Below are positions 9,330 to 44,415 of a stretch of DNA of 64,000 nucleotides, piece by piece. The notes below the pieces were generated by a model, which did not search any database, was not told the origin of the DNA, and saw nothing but the letters and a program-made list of their open reading frames with translations. The stretch's first letter is position 1, and every line of letters starts with the position of its first letter. The position numbers were made by a program, and so were the translations under genes. Source of the DNA: a virus; IMG/VR virus record IMGVR_UViG_3300025030_000054, positions 41,688-105,687 of that record, one strand, 5' to 3'.

Positions 9330-9572
9330 ATGAATTCTAAAAAAGAGATTTGGATAACTAATAGCGGTGAAGTTCTAGATGTTGATGAGATGACCGAAGA
9401 TCATGTTAGAAATACCCTGAAGATGTTGATAAAGCAAATTAGGGAAGGCAAGCTTGGTTGTCTGGGGTACCATCAGGATAGGATAAATATGGAGAGGCGT
9501 ATGGAAGAACTGAGGGAGATTCATCCTAGTCTTACTACTGGGATTAGGGAGTATGGTGTGGATGGTGGGTAG
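9330..9572 (+). CDS. Hypothetical protein
   Basis: 80 residues behind AAAGGAGGG, last gene of the first rightward operon. Charged and mostly helical-looking with a Gly-containing C terminus. The 3' end and following DNA are rich in GTAGGG-like runs. Function unknown. Confidence 0.45.
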   Translation: MNSKKEIWITNSGEVLDVDEMTEDHVRNTLKMLIKQIREGKLGCLGYHQDRINMERRMEELREIHPSLTTGIREYGVDGG

Positions 9573-17356: not shown

Positions 17357-18414
17357 TAGTTGATGAGTGGGTTGACGTGATTTGGAACTCTAGCACTAAA
17401 GACTACTACATTAATTTAGGGTATAAATACACCAAGCTGAGAGGTCCGTTAAAAGTACGAGTAGAACACCTTACTCAGGGGTCCAGCCAACTAGTGACTG
17501 TTCAGTGTGATTTTTGCGGCAAAGTGATTAAAAGACCTATGTACAGATACAACCAAGTAACTAAAAACCAAACTACTGGCTATAGATGCAGAGATTGTTT
17601 TGAAGGGAACTTTGAAAAGGTACACTCCGAATTCTTAGCAAGAGGGCTCACTCCGCTATTCACTGAGTATGTAAACTGTAAAGAGACTTTAGAGTATGTC
17701 TGTAAAAAGCATCCAGATAAAGTACAACGGACCAACTACGATAATTTTTCTTCAGGGCGTGGTTGTATGTTATGCGGTTGGGAATCTACAAGGTACTTTA
17801 AATTATCCAAGATTGAAGACATCAAAGAAGAATTTGCTAAAGACCCTAGAGGCTACATTCTTTTGAGTGAAAGTTACACGTCGCTAAAAGACAAGCTGCT
17901 GTATATTTGCCCTAAGCACCCCCAGGAAGTTATGAAAATTTCTTTAAACAATTATCGAAGAGGTAAAGGTTGCAGACTGTGTGCCTTTGACCGCCAAAGA
18001 GGTGCTGGGAATGGGAATTATAAAGGACTTTCCACTATTACTAAGAGTTTAAGGTTACACATAATACCGTGGGTCTTGACAGCCTTGAAAGAAAGTAACT
18101 TTACATGCTCTCTGACTGGCGTTAGGGGAGTGCCTTTGGAAGTTCACCATGAGTACTCCTTCTCGGCTAGTAGAGACTCAGCACTAAGGGCAACCGGATT
18201 TAGAAAAAATGCAGTCAGAAATGAACTTTCTGAAGAGCAGTACAGTGAGCTGGTAAAGGTATTTGAGAATATTCATAACAGACACGCACCTAAAGTTATA
18301 CAAAAGCCTTTACACAAATTATTTCACAAGTACTACGGAAACCGCAATAACACACAACAACAGTTTGAAGAATTTGCGTCTGATTTCTCAAAAGGTTGGT
18401 TACTATTTAGCTAA
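17353..18414 (+). CDS. HNH endonuclease with repeated zinc knuckles
   Basis: 353 residues from GTG overlapping the previous stop. The N-terminal two thirds carry zinc pairs CDFCG, CRDC, CKKH, CMLCG, CPKH and CRLC in two related units (VCKKHPDKVQRTNYDNFSSG and ICPKHPQEVMKISLNNYRRG), then a C-terminal HNH: CSLTGV, VHHEYSFS and LHKLFHKYYG. This looks like a free-standing homing endonuclease placed directly before the DNA polymerase gene, a favoured target for such elements. It ends within the polymerase ribosome site. Confidence 0.75.
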   Translation: MIVDEWVDVIWNSSTKDYYINLGYKYTKLRGPLKVRVEHLTQGSSQLVTVQCDFCGKVIKRPMYRYNQVTKNQTTGYRCRDCFEGNFEKVHSEFLARGLTPLFTEYVNCKETLEYVCKKHPDKVQRTNYDNFSSGRGCMLCGWESTRYFKLSKIEDIKEEFAKDPRGYILLSESYTSLKDKLLYICPKHPQEVMKISLNNYRRGKGCRLCAFDRQRGAGNGNYKGLSTITKSLRLHIIPWVLTALKESNFTCSLTGVRGVPLEVHHEYSFSASRDSALRATGFRKNAVRNELSEEQYSELVKVFENIHNRHAPKVIQKPLHKLFHKYYGNRNNTQQQFEEFASDFSKGWLLFS

Positions 18415-18424
18415 GGAGGTTAAA

Positions 18425-20944
18425 TTGATTGTAGCAAAGATAGGCAGCAAAGTAAACTTGTTGATACTTTACGATTCTCCGCAACACCAAAACTGGATAA
18501 CTAAAGGAGAAGTTACCTCAGACGGACTTGGAAAATTCTATACAGACGCAACTACACAAGCTGGTATAGATTTTAACGAGGTTGCTATTTGCTGCCTATC
18601 TGACGAGAAGGACGGAAAGGCAGCAGGGTTCAAAGCTAAAGAAGCATACATCCAAGAGCTGATAGAAGTCTATGCCCCCAACTTGATCTTGCTGCCTTCC
18701 TCAAAAGCATTTGAAATATTTATGGGAATGAAAGGAGCAAGTAAATTTTACGGGAGAGTTCTGTACAACGAGAAACATAACTGTAAAGTAATAACTATGC
18801 CTCCTCACTCTATGCTTGTTTACAAACCAGACATTCAGCCTCTGATAACTTCCTCTCTGAGAACCGTTAAAGTAGAAATGGACTTTCCTGAGTTAAGAGA
18901 AGAAGAACGGCCCGACAAGCAGTATGTAATGATTGACACTATAGCCAAATTTAGATCAATGTTTAGGTTCTACAAAGAAAACGTATTTAGCTTCGCTATA
19001 GATACTGAAACAACGAGCCTTAGATTTAACAGCGGAAAAGTTATCCTCATTCAGTTGAGCCACAAAGATCATTTTGGGGCAGCGATACCAACTCCCGATT
19101 ACGGAGCTAAGTGGGCTGATGAAGAGTGGGCCGAAATAGTTGCAGGGCTTAAAGAACTTATAGAAGACGTTAGGAGGGAGAAACTCGTAGCTAATGGTTA
19201 CTTTGACTTTAAGTTTTTGGAACACTGTTACGATATTAAACTTCCGAAGGAAAATGTCTTCTGTGTGTTAATTGCGAGTTTTCTCTGTGATGAAAATCGG
19301 GAATCTCATTCTCTAAAATTCTGTGCGTCAACTCTCTTAGACGACAAAACCGCTGTCAACTATGAAGCCCCTTTAGATGACTTCAAAGACAAGTATTGCA
19401 AAGAACATAAAATCAAGAAGAGTGAGTTCACTTACGATTTAGTTCCACCGGATACCTTGTTTACTTATTCTTGCATGGATGTTGATTTCACATTTCAATT
19501 GGCAAGGTACTTTAAAGAAGAACTTAAAAAAGAAGAACAAGAACAGGTCTTTAAAGATGTAAGTTCTTATGCTTGGGCTTTGGCTAGGATTGAGCAAAAT
19601 GGCTGGAAGATTGACATGGAAGAAGCCCAAAGGTATAAAGAAGAACTAACCGGCAGGATAGCGGAGCTGGAAGAAAAAATTCAAGACCTAAATGAAATCA
19701 AAGCTGCTACTAAGGTCTTGTCTGCGGCAAAGTTAGTAGCTGAAAATGCTAAAAGAAAAACCAAATTAAAAGCACTTAAAGAGCCTCTCAAGTTTCTGGT
19801 AAGCAGTCCTAACCATAAACGTGTGCTTTTTAAAGACGTGCTTAGGTTCCCTGAAGTAAAGAAAACTAAGAAAGGTTCTTACGCAGTAGATAAAGAATGC
19901 TTTGCTATTTGGTGTGAAAAGTATCCTACAGTTCCTTCTATAAAAGTTATTAGAGAGTTGGAGGAACTTACTAAAATGCGTAATACATATGTGAACGCAT
20001 TGTTAGAAAAATCTGTAGACGGAAGAATTCACTGCTCCTACCGAGTAGCTTTTCCTAAAACGGGACGTATTTCAGCACTTTCGCCCAATCTCCAGAACAT
20101 TACAATGCACTCAGAAGAGAGTAAAAAACTCAGGAGATGTTTCACTGTAGACAAAGGAAACATGCTGGTACTTTCGGACCTCTCAAACGCGGAGCTGAGA
20201 CAGGTCGCTGCCATAAGCGGTGATGCAGTAATGAGCGAAGGCTTTAAAAATGGACAAGATCCCCACTCTACCACAGCAAAAAGTATTTTTAATCTTGAAG
20301 CGCCTGTTGAGGAAATTAAAGAAAAGTTCAACGAGTATAGACAGCTAGGTAAAGTCCTAGGCTTCTCTGCACTTTACGGCGGAGGTGGTTCTCTGATTGC
20401 TAAACGGGCTAACATTGAGGTCGAGGAAGCAGAAAGGCATCTGTCGGAATACTTTAGAAAACATTCTGGAATTGCCCAACTCTTTAAAGACAACACAGCT
20501 TTCGCCAAAGAACACGGTTACGCGGTTGCAATCTCAGGTAGACGTAGAAGGGTTCCGTACATCAATTCGGAAGATAAATATTTGGTTCTGAGAGCAGAAA
20601 GACAAGCCAACAACTTCTTAATCCAGTCTGTTGCCTCGGACTGCATGTTAAAATCCATTGTAAATATGATTACCGAGATTGATGAACTCAACCTCCCTAT
20701 TAAACTCATCAACGTGATCCACGACAGCGTTGAAACGGAAGTGCCTGAGTACTACGTCAACGAAGCCGCAGCATTCATAAAGAGGCATCTGGAAGTCTGG
20801 CATTTTGGGTTGAACCCAGGATTTGACATGAAGTGTGACGTTGAGGTAGGTTATACGTGGGCCGATCTTGGTGCTTACAAAGAAGAGAGTTATGCTGAAC
20901 TTGCTGTAGAAATCGACCCAGAACAAGAGGAGGAAGAAGAATGA
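18425..20944 (+). CDS. Family A DNA polymerase with 3'-5' exonuclease and UDG-like N-terminal domain
   Basis: 839 residues from a TTG start behind AAGGAGG; an upstream in-frame ATG lies in the HNH gene. Residues 1-160 (LLILYDSP...GKFYTDATTQAGIDFNEVAICC...PNLILLPSSKAFEIF) resemble the uracil-DNA-glycosylase superfamily fold. Exonuclease: AIDTETTSL (Asp193, Glu195), NGYFDFKFL (about 260), YSCMDVDF (about 349). Polymerase: motif A DLSNAELR (Asp585), motif B RQLGKVLGFSALYGG (about 637-651), motif C IHDSVETEV (about 764), where the usual HDE is HDS. No 5'-3' nuclease domain; that is supplied by the gene at 22202. Main phage replicase. Confidence 0.9.
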   Translation: MIVAKIGSKVNLLILYDSPQHQNWITKGEVTSDGLGKFYTDATTQAGIDFNEVAICCLSDEKDGKAAGFKAKEAYIQELIEVYAPNLILLPSSKAFEIFMGMKGASKFYGRVLYNEKHNCKVITMPPHSMLVYKPDIQPLITSSLRTVKVEMDFPELREEERPDKQYVMIDTIAKFRSMFRFYKENVFSFAIDTETTSLRFNSGKVILIQLSHKDHFGAAIPTPDYGAKWADEEWAEIVAGLKELIEDVRREKLVANGYFDFKFLEHCYDIKLPKENVFCVLIASFLCDENRESHSLKFCASTLLDDKTAVNYEAPLDDFKDKYCKEHKIKKSEFTYDLVPPDTLFTYSCMDVDFTFQLARYFKEELKKEEQEQVFKDVSSYAWALARIEQNGWKIDMEEAQRYKEELTGRIAELEEKIQDLNEIKAATKVLSAAKLVAENAKRKTKLKALKEPLKFLVSSPNHKRVLFKDVLRFPEVKKTKKGSYAVDKECFAIWCEKYPTVPSIKVIRELEELTKMRNTYVNALLEKSVDGRIHCSYRVAFPKTGRISALSPNLQNITMHSEESKKLRRCFTVDKGNMLVLSDLSNAELRQVAAISGDAVMSEGFKNGQDPHSTTAKSIFNLEAPVEEIKEKFNEYRQLGKVLGFSALYGGGGSLIAKRANIEVEEAERHLSEYFRKHSGIAQLFKDNTAFAKEHGYAVAISGRRRRVPYINSEDKYLVLRAERQANNFLIQSVASDCMLKSIVNMITEIDELNLPIKLINVIHDSVETEVPEYYVNEAAAFIKRHLEVWHFGLNPGFDMKCDVEVGYTWADLGAYKEESYAELAVEIDPEQEEEEE

Positions 20945-33882: not shown

Positions 33883-33894
33883 TAAGTGTCACTA

Positions 33895-33926
33895 AAAGGG
33901 GTGGGTCAAACCGCCCCTTTAATTTT
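33895..33926 (+). terminator. Hairpin between clpP-like gene and nrdD
   Basis: Stem AAAGGGG / CCCCTTT (33895-33901 with 33914-33920), extended by GG/CC inside, followed by AATTTT. It can terminate the upstream operon, but it also begins within 5-6 bases of the start predicted from the promoter at 33854, so it may instead be a 5' hairpin on the nrdD message. Confidence 0.55.
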
Positions 33927-33951
33927 AACTTTAGCAAGAGGAGTTTTAAAA

Positions 33952-36885
33952 ATGTACTATGTCCCGATAAGTTACACAAGAGAATTTGTAGACCTGATGA
34001 TGTACCTAAAAACAAAGTATGGCCAGAAGTTGTTTGATCTGGAAGGTATAGGCAAGCAACTTGATATGTGCAAATTCTCTAAGGATTTTTTCTCAGCTAC
34101 TACTACGGCAGATGCCAGTGTAGACGCAAATGCCAACGTCACAGACACTTCCAATATTGCTTACGGTATTGAACTACCTAAACCTTATTTCAAACTCAAT
34201 AGCTATTTCATGTTGTGGAAGCATATGAGAAAACTATATGGCATGGAGGTTGCCAACTCTACTATAGAGCAGCAGCTTACAGGGTCGGTATACGTAAATG
34301 ATTTTCTTGGAATCGCTGCTGGAAGTCCGTACTGCTTTAATTACAGTACCTACGATATCATGCTTCTGGGCCTACCTATGGTGGATAAAATTAAGTCGGT
34401 AGCCCCCAAATACCTGTATAGTTTCAAAAGCCAACTTGAGCAGTTTGTTGTAATTGCTTCTAACTCTACCCTCGGTGCTGCTGGGCTGGCTGATCTTCTG
34501 ATTGTAATGAGCTACTATGTCAAAAATATTCTAAGTACTAAATCAGATGCTGGATTTTCTTTCAAGGATGAGGCGGCTTGCTGGAACTACGTTAAAGAAA
34601 CTTTGGTGAGTTTTATCTACACTATTAACCAGCCAATGCGAGGCAATCAGTCACCGTTTACTAATGTATCTATTTATGACTCAGAGTTTTTGAATTCTCT
34701 TTGCCCCCAATACGTGTTTCCTGACGGCAGCACTCCAGATATATACTTAGTTCAGCGGATTCAGGAACTCTTCTTGGATGTTATGAACTCAGAAATGAAA
34801 CGCACTCCTGTGACTTTCCCAATTACCACAGCTTGCTTCTCTGTAAATGACGATAAGAAAATTACGGACGAAGCATTCATTGAGTTCATCGCTGAAAAGA
34901 ACACAGAGTTTGGCTTTATCAATATGTACATAGGTAAGAGTTCAACGCTCTCAAGTTGCTGTTTCACTGGCGATCAAAAAGTTCTCGTGAGGGATAGCTA
35001 TGCGGGTGTGAGGTTAATGCCTATTGAGAAATACGCCACCACCCCCTTTGAAGAAAAACCTAACGCAACCGTATACCATGATGGGTCTTGGGTTAAAGGC
35101 AAAACGGTAAAAACTAAATACACCGGCAAACTGTACACTATCAAAACTGCTAATAAAAAAGAAGTCACTGTGACTGCCGACCATATTTTTCCCACACAGA
35201 ATGGGGATAAGAATGCTGCGGATATCACTTTAGATGAAATGTTACTTTTTAATAGTTCTCCACTCACACCAGCTATGAGGGGAACCCAAGAGTTAACCTA
35301 CGAAGACGGTCTGTTGATAGGTGCTTACTTAGGAGATGGAAGTATTTATTACAGAAACAATGGGGCATCTGTTGAAGTTACTATGTCGGTAACTGAGGTG
35401 AAACTTGAAAGACTGCCCTTCTTGAAGTCTTGGAATATTTACCCTAGCAAAAATAATGTGGTATTTGCTAAGAGCTATTCTTTAGAAACAGCAGCTAAGA
35501 TTGAAGAGTGGGTTACTGTGGGTAGAGCGCCAGATAAGCGTTTGTCTATGCAGGTACTAGACCAACCTTACGAGTTTAGAGAAGGAATTTTAGACGGACT
35601 TTACGCCACTGACGGAGGCAATAGCAACCGAATTTATACCACATCAGAAGGTCTGGCAGAGGACTTGGAAGTCCTTCTTACCAGCCTCGGAAGACAGAGT
35701 ATAATGGACGTGTCTGACAGGACTGACGAGCCTGTAGTGATTAGGGGAGAAGAGTTCAACAGAAACTACCCGCTACATTGTGTGAGATGGTACGCCCCTA
35801 AAAATTCAAGAAAACAGGAAGGTATATATCTTAAGAGAAATGGTAATACCTATTTCAAGGCAACTGAGATAGCCGTGAGGGAGGTTGTTGAAGAAGAAGT
35901 TTACTGCTTTGAGGTTCTAAATACAGATGAGCCGTATTTCACGCTACCTAATGGAATTATAACCCACAATTGTCGCCTCAGAAGTGATACAGATAACGAG
36001 TACTTCAATAGTTTTGGTTCTGGTAGCTCTAAGATTGGCTCATTGGGTGTTACTACAATTAATCTTCCGAGGCTTGCTTTTAAAACAGCAGGGCTATCAA
36101 AAGATACTGCCGAACGAGAAGCCTATTTCTGGAGTGAGCTTAAAGAGTTGGTAGGCATTGCCGCTAGAGTCAACCACACTAAGCGAGATATCGTAAAGAG
36201 CAGAATTGACAGTAATAATCTGCCGCTGTACTCTTTAGGTTTTATGGACCTATCTAAACAATACTCAACGCTAGGGGTAAACGGTCTTAATGAGTGCCTA
36301 GAAATTTTAGGGCTTAACATTTTGGCGAGTGATGGGCAAGAATTTGTTGTTCGAATACTCGAAACCATAAACTCTGAAAATGATAAATTCCAAAAGGCTT
36401 ACAAAACTCCCCATAACTGCGAGCAAATTCCAGGAGAAAATGTCTCTATTAAACTTGCAGATAAAGATAGGTTTATGGGGTATAACGATAGGTACGAACT
36501 TTATAGCAATCAGTTTATACCCCTCACAACTAAAGCTGACCTGCTAGACCGTATTCATCTTCAAGGTTTGTTTGACAGTCATTTTTCGGGTGGCGCTATT
36601 TGTCACTTGAATATTGAAGAGAAGGTAGAAGATACTAAGAAAGTAGTAGAACTTATCAAGATGTGTGCAGAGAAGGGTGTAATTTATTTTGCCTTAAACT
36701 ACAATCTGCAACGTTGTTCTGAAGGCCACATGTCTGTAGGTAAGAAGGAAACTTGTGGGGTATGTGGCGGGGAAGTGATAGATAACTATACAAGGGTTGT
36801 TGGGTTCCTGACCAATGTAAAGAACTGGCATAAGGTAAGACGCGAGCAAGATTATCCTGAAAGACAGTTTTATAAAGAGGCTTAG
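33952..36885 (+). CDS. nrdD: Class III anaerobic ribonucleoside-triphosphate reductase, with intein
   Basis: 977 residues, about 640 after intein removal, matching phage NrdD. Start 33952 follows AGAGGAG; an upstream in-frame start would cross the hairpin. The protein reduces ribonucleotides to deoxyribonucleotides in the absence of oxygen. N-extein ends ...STLSSC and C-extein begins CRLRSD, i.e. the insertion is at the conserved CCRL region. C terminus has a zinc site (CSEGH...CGVCG) and the glycyl-radical site in RVVGFL. The intein (34960-35970) is described separately. Confidence 0.92.
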   Translation: MYYVPISYTREFVDLMMYLKTKYGQKLFDLEGIGKQLDMCKFSKDFFSATTTADASVDANANVTDTSNIAYGIELPKPYFKLNSYFMLWKHMRKLYGMEVANSTIEQQLTGSVYVNDFLGIAAGSPYCFNYSTYDIMLLGLPMVDKIKSVAPKYLYSFKSQLEQFVVIASNSTLGAAGLADLLIVMSYYVKNILSTKSDAGFSFKDEAACWNYVKETLVSFIYTINQPMRGNQSPFTNVSIYDSEFLNSLCPQYVFPDGSTPDIYLVQRIQELFLDVMNSEMKRTPVTFPITTACFSVNDDKKITDEAFIEFIAEKNTEFGFINMYIGKSSTLSSCCFTGDQKVLVRDSYAGVRLMPIEKYATTPFEEKPNATVYHDGSWVKGKTVKTKYTGKLYTIKTANKKEVTVTADHIFPTQNGDKNAADITLDEMLLFNSSPLTPAMRGTQELTYEDGLLIGAYLGDGSIYYRNNGASVEVTMSVTEVKLERLPFLKSWNIYPSKNNVVFAKSYSLETAAKIEEWVTVGRAPDKRLSMQVLDQPYEFREGILDGLYATDGGNSNRIYTTSEGLAEDLEVLLTSLGRQSIMDVSDRTDEPVVIRGEEFNRNYPLHCVRWYAPKNSRKQEGIYLKRNGNTYFKATEIAVREVVEEEVYCFEVLNTDEPYFTLPNGIITHNCRLRSDTDNEYFNSFGSGSSKIGSLGVTTINLPRLAFKTAGLSKDTAEREAYFWSELKELVGIAARVNHTKRDIVKSRIDSNNLPLYSLGFMDLSKQYSTLGVNGLNECLEILGLNILASDGQEFVVRILETINSENDKFQKAYKTPHNCEQIPGENVSIKLADKDRFMGYNDRYELYSNQFIPLTTKADLLDRIHLQGLFDSHFSGGAICHLNIEEKVEDTKKVVELIKMCAEKGVIYFALNYNLQRCSEGHMSVGKKETCGVCGGEVIDNYTRVVGFLTNVKNWHKVRREQDYPERQFYKEA
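34960..35970 (+). mobile_element. Intein with LAGLIDADG homing endonuclease in NrdD
   Basis: 337 residues, in frame. Starts with Cys (CFTGDQKVLV, block A), has TVTADHIFPT (block B TxxH), endonuclease motifs LLIGAYLGDGS and GILDGLYATDGG (two LAGLIDADG-type helices), then block F/G VYCFEV...GIITHN and Cys +1. All splicing residues (Cys1, the block B His, HN at the end, Cys+1) are present, so splicing should be active, and the two acidic residues of the nuclease appear intact. Confidence 0.92.
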
Positions 36886-36892
36886 AGTATAA

Positions 36893-37351
36893 GTGAGATT
36901 CTTAACTACACAGTATACTCTTTCTAAAGGTGCATTAGAAATTTACTTTTCAGGTTGTAAAGGACCGCATTGTAGGGGTTGCCATAACCCCGAAACTCAG
37001 TCTTTTAGTTTAGGTACAGAAGTAGGTGCTAAAGAACTATCTAGCATTATTAAGGCTAAGGTGCAGTCTTTTGGTACGCTTATAGAAAGTATAATGATCT
37101 TAGGGGGCGAGCCTCTAGACCAACCACAGAAAGAACTAGAAGAGTTTATTCAAGCACTGTCAGATCTTAACCTACCTATCTGGCTGTTTACTAGGTATGA
37201 ACTTTCACAAGTACCTTTTAGTTTGCGTATAAAGTTCAGTTATATTAAGACTGGAAGGTACCTCGAAGAGTTCAAGGGCGAAAAGACTCAGTACGGCATT
37301 ACGTTAGCAACTAGCAATCAAAAAATTCATAAAAGAGGTTTAGACTACTAA
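36893..37351 (+). CDS. nrdG: Anaerobic ribonucleotide reductase activase (radical SAM)
   Basis: 152 residues from GTG, 8 bases after nrdD. Radical-SAM protein that installs the glycyl radical on NrdD. The cluster motif is SGCKGPHCRGCHNPE, i.e. CxxxxCxxC, one residue longer than the CxxxCxxC of E. coli NrdG; GGEPLDQ (about 64) is the SAM-binding GGEP. Last gene of the rightward half, followed by a bidirectional terminator. Confidence 0.88.
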   Translation: MRFLTTQYTLSKGALEIYFSGCKGPHCRGCHNPETQSFSLGTEVGAKELSSIIKAKVQSFGTLIESIMILGGEPLDQPQKELEEFIQALSDLNLPIWLFTRYELSQVPFSLRIKFSYIKTGRYLEEFKGEKTQYGITLATSNQKIHKRGLDY

Positions 37352-37356
37352 CAAAC

Positions 37357-37390
37357 AAAAGCCCCTACAAACTATCTTGTAGGGGCTTTT
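37357..37390. terminator. Bidirectional terminator between converging halves
   Basis: AAAAGCCCCTACAA / TTGTAGGGGCTTTT, 14-bp perfect stem with loop ACTATC; A-run and T-run on the two sides make it work on both strands. It separates nrdG (rightward) from the lipase gene (leftward). Confidence 0.9.
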
Positions 37391-37417
37391 CTCATTCATC
37401 CGAAAAATCATCTAAAT

Positions 37418-37429
37418 AGGTAATTACCT
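37418..37429. promoter_or_regulatory. AGGTAATTACCT palindrome, copy 5
   Basis: Perfect copy between the converging genes, after the lipase stop. Its flanks (AAAT left, AAATC right) are identical to those of copy 1 at 3446. Confidence 0.55.
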
Positions 37430-37455
37430 AAATCATCGTAAAGTCATTAACCCAC

Positions 37456-38034
37456 CTAAAACTTCCTACCAACAAACTTGTTGTAGTAGCTAATAGAGTG
37501 ATCGCCAACATCCACCAACTCCTCACCACTATCCCCGTCTGCAATACCTACCCCTTCACATTTATGTTCAAAAAGAAATTTAGGTATCATCGCCACCGGA
37601 TCGTCCTTCATGAAAATTCTAACATGATCTACAGAGGACTCGAAAGACCAGTATTTAAAGTACACTCTAGGCGACCCGAAGGTAATGCAACCAACTCCTA
37701 ATTTCTCAGCGAATAAAGTAGCAACAGCACCTCCCAAAGAATGACCTGTAAAAATTATCTTCCGGTTATCTCCCAGCTCCTTTAGAATCTTAGGGCTAAG
37801 TTTATTAAAAGCTCTGACGAAGCCCCACGTACTAAAGAAACTTCCAAACTTCCAAGGGATAACGTTAATGTCCCTAGCAGCATTTCTAGCATTTGAGGTT
37901 CCTCTTATAGATACTAAAGTTAAGTCTGCTAAGTGTGTGATGGAATAGCCTAAGTCTTTAACCTCTGTGCAGTTATCATAGACCTCTTCAGATAGTTTGC
38001 CGCACAGTTTTATTAGTTCGTTTGTAATTGGCAT
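37456..38034 (-). CDS. Class 3 lipase-like alpha/beta hydrolase
   Basis: 192 residues. TGHSLGGA nucleophile elbow (Ser about 96), a GSPR loop (about 119), KDDPVAMIP acid region (Asp about 143) and DHSISYY (His about 179) give the triad of class 3 lipases (VSIRGTSN is the oxyanion strand). No signal peptide. It is the last late gene, downstream of the endolysin, so it might act on host or bacterial membrane lipids at lysis; that is inferred from position. AAAGG is a modest ribosome site. Confidence 0.75.
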   Translation of the reverse strand: MPITNELIKLCGKLSEEVYDNCTEVKDLGYSITHLADLTLVSIRGTSNARNAARDINVIPWKFGSFFSTWGFVRAFNKLSPKILKELGDNRKIIFTGHSLGGAVATLFAEKLGVGCITFGSPRVYFKYWSFESSVDHVRIFMKDDPVAMIPKFLFEHKCEGVGIADGDSGEELVDVGDHSISYYNKFVGRKF

Positions 38035-38080
38035 GGTGGGTACCTTTAAAATTATTTTTTACTAATAGTGCATTTTTTAC

Positions 38081-38109
38081 TTGACTTTTTGCCGAAAATG
38101 TGCTATAAT
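38081..38109 (+). promoter_or_regulatory. Strong sigma70 promoter facing non-coding DNA
   Basis: TTGACT (38081-38086), 17-base spacer, TATAAT (38104-38109). It reads rightward, against all late genes, into 38116-38530 where no open frame of 60 codons or more exists on either strand. Confidence 0.75.
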
Positions 38110-38115
38110 AAAACC

Positions 38116-38530
38116 ATGTTGACTTGAAAGGTTAACAAGAAAGATTTTTATCTTTCTAAGTAATTTAAATATTACTAAACAGAAAAACTAATTACTACTT
38201 AGTATCTCAACGAAGCGTAGCGGAGTTGAGCAACAAATTAAACCTTCTAAGTCTTAAACAAGTTGTTAGCTAAGTTATCTAAAGGCAAATTCTATACCTA
38301 AAATCTAACAGCCTTCAGGCTTACTTGAAAGTAGACTTTGCTTTGTTCAGTCGCACAAGTGCTCCTGAACTTATTATAGAAATAGTAAATATTTGAAAGG
38401 CTACTACAGGTTAGTAACTATACTTCAGAAGGCTTTCCATACTACTTGTCTCAGACCTTCAGAAGACTTTCCATACTACTTGCCTCAGACCTTCAGAAGA
38501 CTTTCCATACTATCTCCCGTCCCGCCCAAA
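38116..38530 (+). ncRNA. Candidate structured non-coding RNA or origin region
   Basis: About 415 bases without a gene, starting at the expected start of the promoter at 38081. Local hairpins: AGAAAGAT/ATCTTTCT (38138-38157), AGTAAT/ATTACT (38159-38176), CTCAAC/GTTGAG (38206-38230), AGCC/GGCT (38310-38321) and a two-step stem GTTCAG-GCA/TGC-CTGAAC (38345-38370). The end carries 34-bp tandem repeats. No tRNA fold and no clear terminator seen. It could be a long phage RNA, or an origin with promoter-primed synthesis. Confidence 0.45.
38423..38512. repeat. 34-bp tandem repeat, about 2.6 copies
   Basis: Units start at 38423, 38457 and 38491; the first two differ at two positions and the third is cut after 22 bases. 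Each unit begins with CTTCAGAAG, itself an odd-centred inverted repeat. Such iterated sites are seen at replication origins and in repeat-bearing RNAs. Confidence 0.8.
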
Positions 38531-38533
38531 TAA

Positions 38534-38959
38534 TCACTCAACCTTCAGCTTCCCAGCTCGCCACAATTCCCTCTGGCGCCGCCAACTCGGGTCCTCAATA
38601 TGCGGTAAATCCAAGAAGCTCTTAAAATAGAACCCAGCAGTCAGACCTAACTTAACTGCTATATCAGCCATTATTTTAAACAGTTTTTTATTTGCAGACC
38701 AGTCGAAGTTTTTACCGTCCGCTGTCAAAGGCCATAGATCAACAGCTAGTCCGTAGTTATGAGCGGAACTTCCCGGAGGCGCGTTACTAACTACTTTTCC
38801 TGGAGTCGTCCTGCCTTGGGCGTAGATAGCTTTCTGATGTGCCATTGTTCGTCGCCCATCACTAATTCCCCACTTCCTTCCAGTAGCCTTCTCAGTCTGC
38901 TTTATAAGTTCCTCTACCTTTGCCTTAAATGCTGGTTCAAGGGTATCTATCTTCCTCAT
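38534..38959 (-). CDS. Endolysin, M15 (VanY-like) peptidase
   Basis: 141 residues. Start at 38959 follows TAGGAGA; earlier in-frame codons lie in the glycosyltransferase gene. The M15 metallopeptidase pattern is present: SDGRRTMAHQKAIYAQGRT, SSAHNYGLAVDLW (zinc His and Asp) and LPHIED (second His). It would cut the peptide stem of peptidoglycan for release. No signal peptide, so a holin is needed; none is recognised in this window. Confidence 0.8.
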   Translation of the reverse strand: MRKIDTLEPAFKAKVEELIKQTEKATGRKWGISDGRRTMAHQKAIYAQGRTTPGKVVSNAPPGSSAHNYGLAVDLWPLTADGKNFDWSANKKLFKIMADIAVKLGLTAGFYFKSFLDLPHIEDPSWRRQRELWRAGKLKVE

Positions 38960-38969
38960 TTTAAATCTC

Positions 38970-40634
38970 CTAAAATAATCCCAACTCTTTATAATCGCCC
39001 CAGTACTCTTCCACGCTAACATAGTTCTTGCTATAAAGGTCGCAGTGGTTTGTAAAGTTCTTTCCGTGGTTAATATGAACACTAGAATTAATACAATGCC
39101 AAGGGTTTCTCACTAAATCAGGCTCAAGCATTACCTGACCTCTTAGCAAAGCCTCTTTAACTTTACTCTCAAAATGACCTATAGCATCACTAAAAAGCAT
39201 GGTCATCTGGTGCAAAGGAATAGAGTCATGCACATGCTCATAGCTCTGAAAGCCCTCAGAACATACTCCTTTTAAGTTAGTATTATAAATCACCCCACTA
39301 TCAAAGTTAGGGTAATCGAAGTAGCCCTCTGGATAAAGTACGTCATGTTCTAAGAAACTCACATATTTGTAAGACCCAGTGGCTTCCGCTCGGTAAAGTA
39401 ACTGAAGGATCTGCAAAGTAATGTTTAGATGGTTGCTACTCTGGGTCTGCGCTATGAGTTCTGGGAAAGGATTATTTTCAATAGTTTTCCAAGTGCTTGT
39501 TAAAATGTCTGCCTTGCCCTTAGATATCCTCTCCAAATTACCTAAAACATTACTCACAACACTATCGTCATTATTATTTGTATAGAATATTCCAAGCCTG
39601 TTACAAGTGCCTTCTGGGATAATTAGATAGTCATTTTCAGGGATTACTTTAGAGTACTCAACGTCATCCAGTTTGTACTTAACCACTAGGTGCTTTAGTA
39701 TGCCTTCTTGGGGGTCCCACCCGGCTAGGCTATTATTCACGCAAACATTAAGGCCACTACCTCTAACCAACCGCCTAAGATTAGCTGTTACGTTAGCCCC
39801 ACCGTATGATGCTTCTATAATCTCTAATTTCACAGTCTTATCCTTTGCAGCGGTTATTTGAGCAGCTATTGAGTTAACCCTATCAGCACCAAAATGTTCT
39901 TCGATAGGCTTTAAATCAAGTCCGAGTTCGTTGAAACCTATGATATAATTCCTAATCCTATCGTCGTAAATCATAGGGTAAGGTATATCTCCCATACCAG
40001 TTTTGAAGAGATGCACCCAAGACAGGAATGGAAGGCAGATAGTTTTATGCCCTGCCTTTCTATACTTACTGTGAATGTAACCCTCTTCCCCACCAAAGCC
40101 TGCAAAGTCTGGGTTAAATCCTAGCCAAGCATCTTTCCTACAAGCAAATAGACCAAGACCCTGCATAGGAATTTCGTAGGGTTCTGAGTTAGGGTCTATT
40201 GAAGCAGCTCGCCAAGTCCCCCACATACCACTTGCCCACTCATCGTTGAAAGCGTCTGCATAATTAACTAGATCGTCGTATCTCAACGGACCTTGCAGAA
40301 GATCTTTACAGTCAGGATTTTTAGAAGTCCAATCTTTAAAGCTAGCCATAGCACCTTCTGTAAGTAAAACATGGGTATCAATGCACATAACCCAGTCACC
40401 TAGAGCCTCTCTAAATACAAGGTCTCTAGGTGCCGAAGTTCCTGTTTTTTCTGTGTAAAGAATGTAGCGAGTTCCGTAGGTACCGTCTATAAAACTTTTT
40501 AGACGCTTATCACCATAGTTGTCTATCACTAAAATCTCAGTGTCTGTCATATCTTGGTACATTAAGAGAGATTGGACAGTGAACCAAACTTCAGTAAAAT
40601 TATTATAACTCGCCATTCCTATAGTTAGTTTCAT
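38970..40634 (-). CDS. GT-A glycosyltransferase-like protein
   Basis: 554 residues. N-terminal family 2 glycosyltransferase: LTIGMASYNNF (3-13), ILVIDNYGD, CIDTHVLLTEG (DxD-like site replaced by DTH) and a GGEEGYI acceptor-side motif (about 180). A middle beta domain (KLEIIEASYGGANVT...) and a C-terminal domain with FLEHDVLYPEGYF follow. It may glycosylate virion proteins or DNA; position among tail-fibre genes suggests virion decoration (inference). It overlaps the upstream gene by 4 bases. Confidence 0.65.
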   Translation of the reverse strand: MKLTIGMASYNNFTEVWFTVQSLLMYQDMTDTEILVIDNYGDKRLKSFIDGTYGTRYILYTEKTGTSAPRDLVFREALGDWVMCIDTHVLLTEGAMASFKDWTSKNPDCKDLLQGPLRYDDLVNYADAFNDEWASGMWGTWRAASIDPNSEPYEIPMQGLGLFACRKDAWLGFNPDFAGFGGEEGYIHSKYRKAGHKTICLPFLSWVHLFKTGMGDIPYPMIYDDRIRNYIIGFNELGLDLKPIEEHFGADRVNSIAAQITAAKDKTVKLEIIEASYGGANVTANLRRLVRGSGLNVCVNNSLAGWDPQEGILKHLVVKYKLDDVEYSKVIPENDYLIIPEGTCNRLGIFYTNNNDDSVVSNVLGNLERISKGKADILTSTWKTIENNPFPELIAQTQSSNHLNITLQILQLLYRAEATGSYKYVSFLEHDVLYPEGYFDYPNFDSGVIYNTNLKGVCSEGFQSYEHVHDSIPLHQMTMLFSDAIGHFESKVKEALLRGQVMLEPDLVRNPWHCINSSVHINHGKNFTNHCDLYSKNYVSVEEYWGDYKELGLF

Positions 40635-41869
40635 ATTAGACTCTTAGTTCCCACGCTTGTTTTAATTCTAACTGCTCCCTCATTTGAATACAACGCAAAT
40701 GATAGAATACCGTTAGATGTTTTAATTCTTAAAGGCCCGTTTTGAGATGTTTGAACAGGCACTTTAGTTGACCCTGCGAGTAATGTTATAAATGGTATGA
40801 AAGGTGCTGCTGTAGTGGTTGTAGTTGGATTACTTGTTGTCGTAGCTTGTATAGTTGTAGTTGTCGGTTGAACTGTTGTAGTAGCCGCCAAAGTTGTTGT
40901 AGGAACTAAGGTAGTTGTGGTAGTTGGAGCTACGGTTGTTGTAGGGGCAGCTGTTGTGGTAGCCAGCGTAATCACCACCGTATCGCTCACCCCTGCGCTC
41001 ACATTCCCCGCCGCGTCCTTGGCCCACGCCCAGAGCGTCTTGATCCCTGCTTCCGCAAACGTGTGCGTCTCAGGTGCCGTCGCGCTCCATCCTGAGTCTC
41101 CTGCAAGCGGTGGGGTTGCTGACTCGGTGAGCTTGTAACCTGTTACTGCTACATCGTCCGTTGCGAGTAGAGATGTGATCGGGACGGTGAGGGTGGTTGA
41201 GGTTGCGGGGATAGTGAAGTAGGTAACGGCCGGGAAAACTATCGCACCATCTGCCGCCAAAAACGGTGTGAGTGCAGACATGATGCCAGTGACCAAAACA
41301 TCCTTCGCCGCCGCGTTGACATGTACGCCGTCAACCAGATAATCAGCTTTCCAGTTGGCGTTGACGGTCATCGCCGTCTGCCAATTGACAAACGGCAGAC
41401 CCCATTCTGTCGCCAGAGATTGCAGCCTATTGCGTAGCGGATCGGTATCGGTCAGATTTCTGTGGTAGGTGAAGCCATCTGTTGATTCCGCATGTGCGGG
41501 CGCAGCCACAAGCAACATGAGGGGATAGCTTGCCATCCCGTCCAAGAGTGCGCGATAATCCCTCACCCTCTGTTCGTAGGCGTCAGGGTTATAGCGTGTC
41601 GGATTTCCAGAGATAAAGTTGTAGTATCCGTCATTGGTCCCGCCGTGAAGGAACACAACCAAGTCAGGCGCAAACGGTGTTACTTGAGTCGAGAAGTTGT
41701 TCAGCGCATCGTAAGAAGTAGACCCCCCAACCCCACTGTTGGTAATAGTGTATGTTGCTGCCGGATATGAATCATTGAGCGCGGCCTGTAGCTTAGCCGC
41801 TAAATCCCCAAAGGTTGCGTCGTTGTATTCGGTGTTGCTGTCGCCTACTAGGGTTATTTTGGTTGTCAT
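40631..41869 (-). CDS. SGNH esterase with Ig-like domain and Thr/Pro linker, fibre or spike
   Basis: 412 residues. SGNH hydrolase: VGDSNTEY (8-15), SGVGGS, HGGTND (about 75-80) and DGVHVN (about 187), a lipase/acylesterase fold often used to deacetylate surface polysaccharide. Then an Ig-like module ending TLWAWAKDAAGNVSA, a PTTTT-rich linker (about 300-360) and a C-terminal beta domain. The SGNH and Ig portions are visibly more GC-rich than neighbours, a sign of recent transfer, and resemble Geobacter proteins. Virion attachment and receptor processing is the likely role. Confidence 0.7.
   Translation of the reverse strand: MTTKITLVGDSNTEYNDATFGDLAAKLQAALNDSYPAATYTITNSGVGGSTSYDALNNFSTQVTPFAPDLVVFLHGGTNDGYYNFISGNPTRYNPDAYEQRVRDYRALLDGMASYPLMLLVAAPAHAESTDGFTYHRNLTDTDPLRNRLQSLATEWGLPFVNWQTAMTVNANWKADYLVDGVHVNAAAKDVLVTGIMSALTPFLAADGAIVFPAVTYFTIPATSTTLTVPITSLLATDDVAVTGYKLTESATPPLAGDSGWSATAPETHTFAEAGIKTLWAWAKDAAGNVSAGVSDTVVITLATTTAAPTTTVAPTTTTTLVPTTTLAATTTVQPTTTTIQATTTSNPTTTTTAAPFIPFITLLAGSTKVPVQTSQNGPLRIKTSNGILSFALYSNEGAVRIKTSVGTKSLI
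40805..40970. repeat. Thr/Pro-linker coding repeat 1
   Basis: Degenerate repeats of a GTAGTTG-type unit (minus strand) encoding TTTxAPTTT in the SGNH fibre gene. Same unit as in the next fibre gene. Boundaries approximate. Confidence 0.7.
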
Positions 41870-41877
41870 TTTGTCCC

Positions 41878-44415
41878 CTAGTACTCTTTGTAATTCGTTA
41901 CTGTGAAATCTGAAGCATTACTATCTGTATAAAAGTCCATACCTAAACACTCATAAAAAGTTGACCCTGCGTCTTTTATGTCTATGCCAAAAGTTAGCCA
42001 ACCTGTAGTTGCTAGCTGAGTACGGCTTGAATTTAAGACTGACAGCTTTGCCGTAGTGCCGCTAACTTCCAGTTTCGCAATATAGGTTGTCCCTGCCGTT
42101 ACTGTAGGGGTGTCAATGACACCTGAATATGTATCAGATGGTGTGTACCACCTCAGCCTAAGAACATTAGTACTTCCCGTACCAGCCGGTGATGCATACA
42201 CCCATAATCTACGTGTAGATGCGATAGTCGCACCATCCCCAACGACCGGAGCGGAAGATTTTTCAACAAGGCCGAATATATCACCGCCTCCTTCCGTGAA
42301 TACAGAAGCAGCAACAGAAAATGTTACTTCGTAACTCCTCACATTGGCTTTGCTGAAATTCTTAGAATACATAAAAGCAGCTTCCCATCCCAATGAAAGG
42401 ATTCTTAAGCTGGATGTTTCCGAAACCGACCCCCCATCCCCGGTGACTACTTGCCACTTAGCTGTATCAAGTGACGAATTGTTAAAATTATCGGAGTATA
42501 ACGGCGGAGTCCCGCTAACCTCCGCCGACTCCGTACTCCCCGCCCCGTTGATAGCCGCGAGGCTGTAATAGTACGTGGTCCCGTTGGTGCGCCCTGTGTG
42601 AGTGTACGGGAGGGTGACGCCGGTTATCGTATTGCTACGGGTGCCTGCTACTGTGCCCCATTTGAGGTCGTAGCTGGTCGCGCCGGTGCCGCCGGATGTT
42701 AGGGCGATGACGTTTTGAGTGTCGCCGGGGGTGACGCTGATGACCGGCTGAGTGGGAGCGGCTGCGGTTGTGACAGTAAACGTATCGCTAACCCCACCAA
42801 TGGTAAGTGTGGTATTTACTGCTGTACTAGCACTGCCAGAACTTGTCACCTTGACCTTGACAGTATCACCATTGATGACCGTTCCCGATGTGCTTGTGTA
42901 CGCTCCACCATTCTTGCTGTATTCGCCACCTGTTATCGAAATAGTAGCAGCATCATTTATTCCTGCTACAGTGATCGTGTTGGACTCTGTAGCTGTACTC
43001 ACCGCAACGCCTGTCTGATCGGTAAAGGTGAAAGCATCGGGAGTCGTATCTGCCACTACAGTAACGACAGAGAAAGTATCAGTCACATCACCTATGGTTA
43101 AGAACGCTGTCGCTGAACTGTTATACCCAGTAGAGCTGTAAAGCTGTACCCTTACGCTGTCGCCGTTTACTACAGTTCCGTCCACATTTGTGAATGCACC
43201 CTCATTGACAGAATACCAGCCACTGAGTACGTGAATGGCAGCAGGTGCATTTATACCAGAGACAGTTATCGGAGCCGAGGTAATCAGGGTGTTTAGTGCT
43301 ACGCTTGATTGATCCACGAAGACGAATCCATCGGGCGTCGTATCTGGTGCTACTGTAGTTGTCGGACTTGCTGTAGTTGTCGGTGCTACTGTAGTTGTCG
43401 GTGCTACTGTTGTGGTAGTAGTTGTTGTAGGCACTGCAGTAGTTGTAGCTGCTAAAGTTGTAGTCGTAGGGTTAGCCGTAGTTGTCGGACTTGCTGTAGT
43501 TGTCGGTGCTACGGTAGTCGTAGTTTCTATTAACGTAGTGACGGTGAAAGAGTCTGTAACTCCGCCTATGGTTAAATACCCAGTCGTTACAGTCCCATAG
43601 TCAGGAGAACTGTAAAGTTGTACTTTTACGGTATCCCCATTCACCACTGTACCATCCGCATTTGTAAACGGGCCGTCATTGATAGAATAATTAGCGCCAG
43701 TTATACTTATCGGAGTTGCCGTATTAATACCATCCACAGTTATACCAAAGAACAGTGTAATTAAGCTATTCCGGGCTACATTCGTTTCATTGATAAAATT
43801 AAATGTATTAGGAGTGGTATCTGGTACTGCTGTAGTTGTTGGAGCCACTGTTGTAGGTACTGCTGTAGTTGTGGCTGCTACTGTAGTAGTAGTTGGTGCT
43901 ATAGTTGTAGTAGTAGGTACTGCCGTAGTAGTAGGTGCTACAGTAGTCGTAGGTGCTACCGTAGTTGTAGGTGTTACAGTAGTTGTTCCTAACAAATCGG
44001 TCCTAATAACAAACGTATAGCCTTGTGCAAACAACGCATCTTCCTGCACTTGTGTAGAAGCCTCTCCTACAAGTATGCCGGACTGACCAATCCTAGCATC
44101 CAGTTTCCGAATTACTTCTTGGGTTAAATGAAAGGCAAACTCGCTGTCACCTGCATAAATTTCTGCAAGCCCCAAGTTAGGAGTCCAGTCAGTAGTTATC
44201 TGGTAAGAAGAACCAGCTACGGAAATTCCAGCGTAGTTAGGGCTGATCTGAATTTGGGTGTTACTATCCACAGATATAATACCGTAAATAGCGGCTACTC
44301 CGTAAACTTTAAAAGTATCCCCAACACCAACCTTACTGAGCCAAGAAGTTCCCACCCCAGTCACTATATTTGTACCTTGATCTACTGATACTGTACCAAC
44401 CTGATACTGTGCCAT
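41878..44415 (-). CDS. Modular tail fibre protein
   Basis: 845 residues. N terminus (GTVSVDQGTNIVTGVGTSW...GDTFKV) is a widespread phage tail-attachment module. Then Thr/Pro linkers alternate with three tandem Ig-like units of about 95 residues starting DTTPN/D (about 210, 380 and 475), each closing xLTIGgVtDtFsVtT. A fibronectin-III-like module (about 570-660, GC-rich DNA) precedes a C-terminal lectin/glucanase-like beta sandwich (DNFNNSSLDTAKW). Host recognition is the likely role. Preceded by phage-type promoter at 44476. Confidence 0.75.
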   Translation of the reverse strand: MAQYQVGTVSVDQGTNIVTGVGTSWLSKVGVGDTFKVYGVAAIYGIISVDSNTQIQISPNYAGISVAGSSYQITTDWTPNLGLAEIYAGDSEFAFHLTQEVIRKLDARIGQSGILVGEASTQVQEDALFAQGYTFVIRTDLLGTTTVTPTTTVAPTTTVAPTTTAVPTTTTIAPTTTTVAATTTAVPTTVAPTTTAVPDTTPNTFNFINETNVARNSLITLFFGITVDGINTATPISITGANYSINDGPFTNADGTVVNGDTVKVQLYSSPDYGTVTTGYLTIGGVTDSFTVTTLIETTTTVAPTTTASPTTTANPTTTTLAATTTAVPTTTTTTTVAPTTTVAPTTTASPTTTVAPDTTPDGFVFVDQSSVALNTLITSAPITVSGINAPAAIHVLSGWYSVNEGAFTNVDGTVVNGDSVRVQLYSSTGYNSSATAFLTIGDVTDTFSVVTVVADTTPDAFTFTDQTGVAVSTATESNTITVAGINDAATISITGGEYSKNGGAYTSTSGTVINGDTVKVKVTSSGSASTAVNTTLTIGGVSDTFTVTTAAAPTQPVISVTPGDTQNVIALTSGGTGATSYDLKWGTVAGTRSNTITGVTLPYTHTGRTNGTTYYYSLAAINGAGSTESAEVSGTPPLYSDNFNNSSLDTAKWQVVTGDGGSVSETSSLRILSLGWEAAFMYSKNFSKANVRSYEVTFSVAASVFTEGGGDIFGLVEKSSAPVVGDGATIASTRRLWVYASPAGTGSTNVLRLRWYTPSDTYSGVIDTPTVTAGTTYIAKLEVSGTTAKLSVLNSSRTQLATTGWLTFGIDIKDAGSTFYECLGMDFYTDSNASDFTVTNYKEY
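43363..43523. repeat. Thr/Pro-linker coding repeat 2
   Basis: Tandem short units encoding PTTTVAPTTT in the 845-residue fibre, with 15-18 base near-identical units, prone to length change. Boundaries approximate. Confidence 0.7.
43815..43990. repeat. Thr/Pro-linker coding repeat 3
   Basis: Second linker block of the same fibre gene, between the N-terminal attachment module and the first Ig-like unit; the same repeat vocabulary as block 2. Boundaries approximate. Confidence 0.7.

Follow-up and report, generated by a model that had tools for sequence, protein, structure and literature searches.

What is encoded in the 499 nucleotides (38035-38533) that separate an M15-type endolysin gene from a class 3 lipase gene in this phage, and what might a near-consensus promoter directed into them serve? 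The window analysed in our study, a stretch of 64,000 nucleotides, comprises positions 41688-105687 of a 105,687-base IMG/VR virus record, which we call G000 and which is known from this metagenome record alone. Its genes form two large opposed blocks, one running rightward to 37351 and the other leftward from 37456, with the tail-type and lysis proteins in the leftward (- strand) block. The window encodes a family A DNA polymerase, whose distant matches include T5-like phages, an SbcC-like protein and NrdD/NrdG, and our search of G000 yielded no tRNA genes; G000 is a distant T5-like phage, and the 499-nt block sits in its lysis cassette. Because this organization is T5-like, we infer by analogy that the rightward genes are early and the leftward genes late. 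The two genes flanking the block are the following:

37456..38034, - strand: lipase (class 3) gene (Pfam PF01764, 1.5e-14)
38534..38959, - strand: endolysin gene of the VanY / peptidase M15 family (Pfam PF02557, 2e-9; PHROG endolysin, 6e-24)

The endolysin reading frame is open to 39082, and the start at 38959 was chosen after the orthologue in a relative, G003. An earlier sequence-only reading had described here some 500 bases without a reading frame, in a genome whose gaps are usually under 50 bases. The first statement is borne out: by a crude gene call the block is the longest of the 73 inter-ORF gaps in the window (the runner-up has 287 nt), and it contains no credible ORF. The second is fair as regards the median gap of 10 nt but not when taken strictly, with 22 of the 73 gaps above 50 nt. 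The longest stop-to-stop frame in the block has 54 codons, ORFs of at least 40 aa begin with TTG only and all overlap the repeats listed below, and no block ORF is in common with the related locus of G003. Such a lack of encoded protein is what a phage cis-antisense RNA would present. As a separate observation, G003 has a 7-codon mini-ORF with a Shine-Dalgarno sequence that has no counterpart in G000.

The predicted promoter and its hairpin domain

The block can be divided into these elements:

38042..38080, + strand: A/T-rich, UP-element-like stretch (TTTAAAATTATTTTTTA...GTGCATTTTTTAC), common to the G003 locus
38081..38109, + strand: extended -10 sigma70-type promoter, TTGACT-17-TATAAT (11/12, TG before the -10 box); activity predicted
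38116..38232, + strand: structured 5' domain of the predicted RNA, by fold z-score; start at about 38116 deduced from the -10 box
38117..38137, + strand: hairpin H1, 9 bp including G-U pairs, from folding, with a G003 counterpart
38138..38157, + strand: hairpin H2, 8 bp with a 4-nt loop, from folding; G003 has an 8-bp stem and 4-nt loop of different sequence in the same place
38159..38176, + strand: hairpin H3, 6 bp, weak, from folding; match to the third stem of G003 uncertain
38177..38205, + strand: A-rich linker, which may form a competing weak helix of only -1.4 kcal/mol
38206..38230, + strand: hairpin H4, from folding, whose apical end contains AACGAAG, as does the apical part of a 9-bp stem in G003
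38233..38422, + strand: part without significant structure (z = -0.80 for 38233-38420, 188 nt), not convincingly alignable to G003
38421..38533, + strand: C-rich, G-poor tail, a possible Rho-utilization stretch (37 C vs 13 G in the last 113 nt)
38423..38512, + strand: 34-bp direct repeat in 2.6 copies (96% matches), absent in G003

The rightward promoter and its orientation against the late genes had both been pointed out beforehand, and our analysis agrees on the two counts, with the promoter on the + strand and the late genes on the - strand. A promoter sequence that opposes the adjacent gene is also what a cis-antisense RNA would have. G003 carries a 12/12 promoter in the same place and the same orientation. 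Sites of at least 11/12 with TG number four in the window among the matches listed, and the block site is the only one of this kind inside the late cluster, in G000 as well as in G003. In five related records we identified 42 such sites, most of them with a Shine-Dalgarno ORF no more than 330 nt away; the block sites of G000 and G003 have no such ORF and show the two highest hairpin scores of the set. The A/T-rich upstream stretch recurs at one further strong promoter each in G003 (92334) and G001 (10990), the latter being a close relative described below. The block promoter thus appears to belong to the class that this lineage places before early genes, and the RNA is probably early, a timing suggested by the likeness of the promoter to sites that precede ORFs. 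When viral contigs were scanned for the promoter pattern, sites of this flavour turned up in many unrelated phages, for the most part before ORFs, and no further homologue of the RNA was found.

Local hairpins following one another had been proposed for the block as a whole, and this stands for its first part only. The segment 38116-38232 folds at -27.6 kcal/mol (z = -3.90, with none of 200 shuffles as good), whereas 38233-38420 does not stand out from its shuffles, and the whole 418 nt from 38116 onward, which at 35% G+C are among the lowest 3% of 418-nt windows, reach only z = -1.58. When the whole phage was tiled with 25 shuffles per window, 0.9% of 1806 windows had z <= -3.9; by this tiling method the domain scores -4.55 on the + strand and -1.83 on the - strand. 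The counterpart domain of G003 has z = -4.39 (0/200 shuffles), and there the opposite strand folds nearly as well, which speaks against the rightward-RNA reading proposed below. Summed stem length also exceeds that of shuffled sequences, with p = 0.001 in G000 and 0/2000 in G003.

The layout is common to both phages: a 9-bp hairpin at the predicted start precedes a stem of 8 bp closed by a 4-nt loop, a third stem of 6 bp follows, and A-rich sequence leads to the final hairpin. In H1, aligned by hand with G003 (TTCATAAC/GTTATGAA), two double-sided changes and one one-sided change keep all pairs, a count that is our own hand reading and depends on the alignment, MAFFT having put the gap elsewhere. 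As the carriers are two genomes, this covariation rests on one sequence pair, aligned partly by hand, and MAFFT misaligned H1, H2 and H4. H2 and H4 keep the layout with nearly complete turnover of sequence, a pattern that could also mean independent hairpins. The loop sequences common to the two phages are the purine-rich loop of H1 and AACGAAG in H4. The sequence-only reading had looked to relatives for kept pairings or repeats; G003 supplied the hairpin layout but lacks the 34-bp repeats.

These repeats, seen beforehand as 2.6 copies at the end of the block, were recovered as such. The tail that contains them bears on where the RNA would end. Rho binds C-rich, G-poor RNA, and Rho-dependent termination in the tail is plausible, but the argument is weak because the C-over-G excess is equalled by 1.3% of late-region windows (0.6% of phage + strand windows). 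We found no intrinsic terminator on the + strand from 38116 onward before a weak candidate near 41440, so the rightward RNA could be much longer. Elsewhere in the window, short tandem repeats (18-bp and related units) occur at 43346-43983, within a tail-fibre-like ORF.

Relatives and the exchanged cassette

Two records found by a lipase search, G001 and G002 (L002, L003), encode lipases 89-90% identical to that of G000, and for most proteins common to G002 and G000 the likeness is far greater than between G003 and G000. Homology to G000 stops at 38046 in both and is regained at 38956 (G001) or 38960 (G002); between these points both carry a different endolysin, which ends a few bases from the lipase, and the block is absent. 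The replacement, in the one tested, has a CHAP domain (PF05257, 3e-8). The exchanged segment is therefore as follows:

38047..38955, no strand assigned: exchanged cassette (block plus endolysin), with a CHAP endolysin instead in G001 and G002

Comparison of these genomes shows that the block and the M15 endolysin are lost or gained together, as one exchangeable cassette, which adjacency alone could explain.

G003 (L004) was found by the endolysin search; it is syntenic with G000 over much of the genome, mostly at 35-80% protein identity, and the two endolysin genes are 70% identical in nucleotides. Its locus reads endolysin, 321-nt gap, a 117-aa ORF and then lipase. In a more distant relative, G010, the endolysin gave no M15 match and the locus lacks the block, and relatives sought through DNA polymerase, tail protein, NrdG and lipase (G010 and more distant phages) include none with the block at the locus, a result that covers the nearest of the 80 lipase loci. 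A search of phage GenBank records with 36500-40500 found no related DNA, the block giving only short chance or promoter-like matches, and the endolysin search of bacterial genomes gave no match.

Two other genes of the window also differ between these phages. The DNA polymerase (18263-20944) is 72% identical to that of the distant G003 and only 38% to that of G002, although most other G002 genes are much closer; these identities point to an allele replacement. The NrdD ORF (33886-36885) has 999 aa, as against 661 in G002 and 632 in G003, a putative insert of roughly 340 aa that is intein-like by its length.

Possible roles of the block

In our judgement the block is probably a phage non-coding RNA gene whose RNA exists. 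The earlier proposal of such an RNA gains support from the G003 promoter, the matching hairpin layout, the lack of ORFs and the strand-asymmetric fold in G000; only the first ~120 nt are structured. Host RNA polymerase would use the promoter at 38081-38109 to make a rightward RNA from about 38116, which would open with the chain of hairpins, approach the end of the endolysin gene in antisense orientation and probably terminate, dependent on Rho, in or soon after the C-rich repeats. Pairing by this RNA, colliding transcription or both would then keep the lysis region silent until late. Predicted transcription heads away from the lipase and into the endolysin antisense strand, and the predicted RNA would be complementary at every base to the stretch of late mRNA that separates the two genes; because of this perfect complementarity, silencing of the lysis region seems the most likely function, and we prefer it since two reported cases, the PAK_P3 antisense RNAs and PAK_P4as15, fit. 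The assignment is tentative, and we place it slightly short of even confidence. It is important to note that the shared loops, AACGAAG in H4 and the purine-rich loop of H1, would be unnecessary for pure pairing in cis, and that T5 has strong sigma70 promoters before early and late genes alike (PMC7472727), which makes an early timing of the RNA less certain.

The same loops, kept within a structured 5' domain, are what would be expected if the same RNA were made and acted in trans, its hairpin domain binding a protein or pairing with other phage or host RNAs and its endolysin neighbourhood being incidental. Trans-acting small RNAs are encoded by other phages (reviewed in PMC12197685), but the domain is known from two genomes only and has no Rfam match, and when it was compared with the translation starts of orthologous phage genes no target ranked high in both phages; we regard a role in trans as somewhat unlikely. 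Close relatives manage without the block, its 3' half cannot be aligned and lacks significant structure, and the repeats are peculiar to G000, all of which would suit a relic of an earlier gene order that has moved with the endolysin cassette and now has a weak function or none. G003, however, retains the promoter boxes and the hairpin layout although the endolysin genes differ at 30% of their bases, and a relic is to us an improbable explanation.

The hairpins might instead serve the late leftward mRNA, in intercistronic stability or processing, with the + strand promoter a separate matter, as they are partly self-complementary on both strands and the two strands fold about equally in G003. 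We give this little credence: the fold in G000 is biased to the + strand (z -4.55 vs -1.83), and in both phages the domain starts right at the predicted + strand start site. The least credible proposal, and one already made from the sequence alone, is a replication origin with RNA-primed initiation and the 34-bp repeats as iterons. A/T-rich DNA with a promoter and direct repeats would suit an origin, but the repeats are not kept in G003, the block is missing at the locus in G001 and G002, and in G000 and G003 alike the cumulative GC skew reaches its maximum instead of its minimum about 1 kb from the block. The skew argument is weak because the gene-direction switch at that site can itself cause skew; the absence of the repeats and of the block are the stronger points against an origin.

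Silencing of the lysis region by an antisense RNA can be compared with reported systems. The closest reported precedent is PAK_P4as15, which the review PMC12197685 describes as an endolysin-associated cis-antisense RNA of about 550 nt, present in PAK_P4 and not in PAK_P3, and proposed to delay lysis. On that account, the two share an endolysin-linked antisense arrangement and absence from a close relative, a likeness of description; PAK_P4as15 comes from expression data whereas the block RNA is predicted, and the latter would have a structured 5' domain and begin in an intergenic block of its own. In PAK_P3, early antisense RNAs over late structural genes are proposed to shut these genes early (PMC4933390), and they resemble the block RNA in being aimed at the late region. 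However, 19 of the 20 PAK_P3 antisense RNAs lie within genes (PMC4933390), whereas the block RNA would start in a 499-nt gap, from the one near-consensus promoter of this type that the late region has.

No Rfam family matched anywhere in the window at gathering score, and with E up to 10 the block gave only two sub-threshold matches, to unrelated families. The large phage RNAs GOLLD and ROOL had not been recognised in the sequence-only reading, and neither covariance model matched; the block resembles them as a phage-associated non-coding RNA but differs in having only about 120 nt of structure. Since no Rfam family matches, the RNA family would be new if real, while its kind, a phage antisense or non-coding RNA beside an endolysin gene, has already been reported. 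That it constitutes a new structured phage RNA family with a four-hairpin 5' domain, conserved in layout and variable in sequence, which is passed on together with a particular endolysin and either times lysis or has a trans effect on the host, we consider possible though doubtful. Should the RNA be made and keep the lysis region silent, part of the control over when phages of this T5-like group lyse their hosts would lie in an exchangeable cassette of RNA and endolysin, for which G000 on the one hand and G001 and G002 on the other, near-identical phages with and without it, offer a natural comparison. The RNA would in that case also be a non-coding RNA lacking an Rfam entry that could be used to search further relatives.

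Other candidate RNA promoters

Our study also noted strong promoters at other sites. In the window, a 12/12 leftward promoter at 9692-9664 (- strand) would direct an RNA towards 9330, antisense to a small rightward gene (9330-9572) and into a C-rich, G-poor stretch; this promoter is also present in G001 (10990, - strand) and G002 (34908, - strand). Outside the window, L036:3266-3451 and L036:18948 contain further near-consensus promoters, some of them divergent, and the RNAs predicted from 3451 (+ strand) and 18948 (- strand) are identical in the 30 bases that follow the -10 box (AAGTCGAGCGTCAAGCGAAGACTACCTATA). The strongest fold z-score in the phage, -9.1, belongs to L036:3394-3510 (+ strand). 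At L036:7020-7225, a 12/12 promoter is followed by about 170 nt without an ORF and then by a G+C-rich hairpin and a T run, a candidate small RNA or attenuated leader. Finally, L078:510-720 (55303 in G010, + strand), which is also found in L096, has a strong promoter between two leftward ORFs, a 5' hairpin, three copies of about GCCTTGCTGTAT and then a G+C-rich hairpin with TTTT, and is a candidate for another non-coding RNA.
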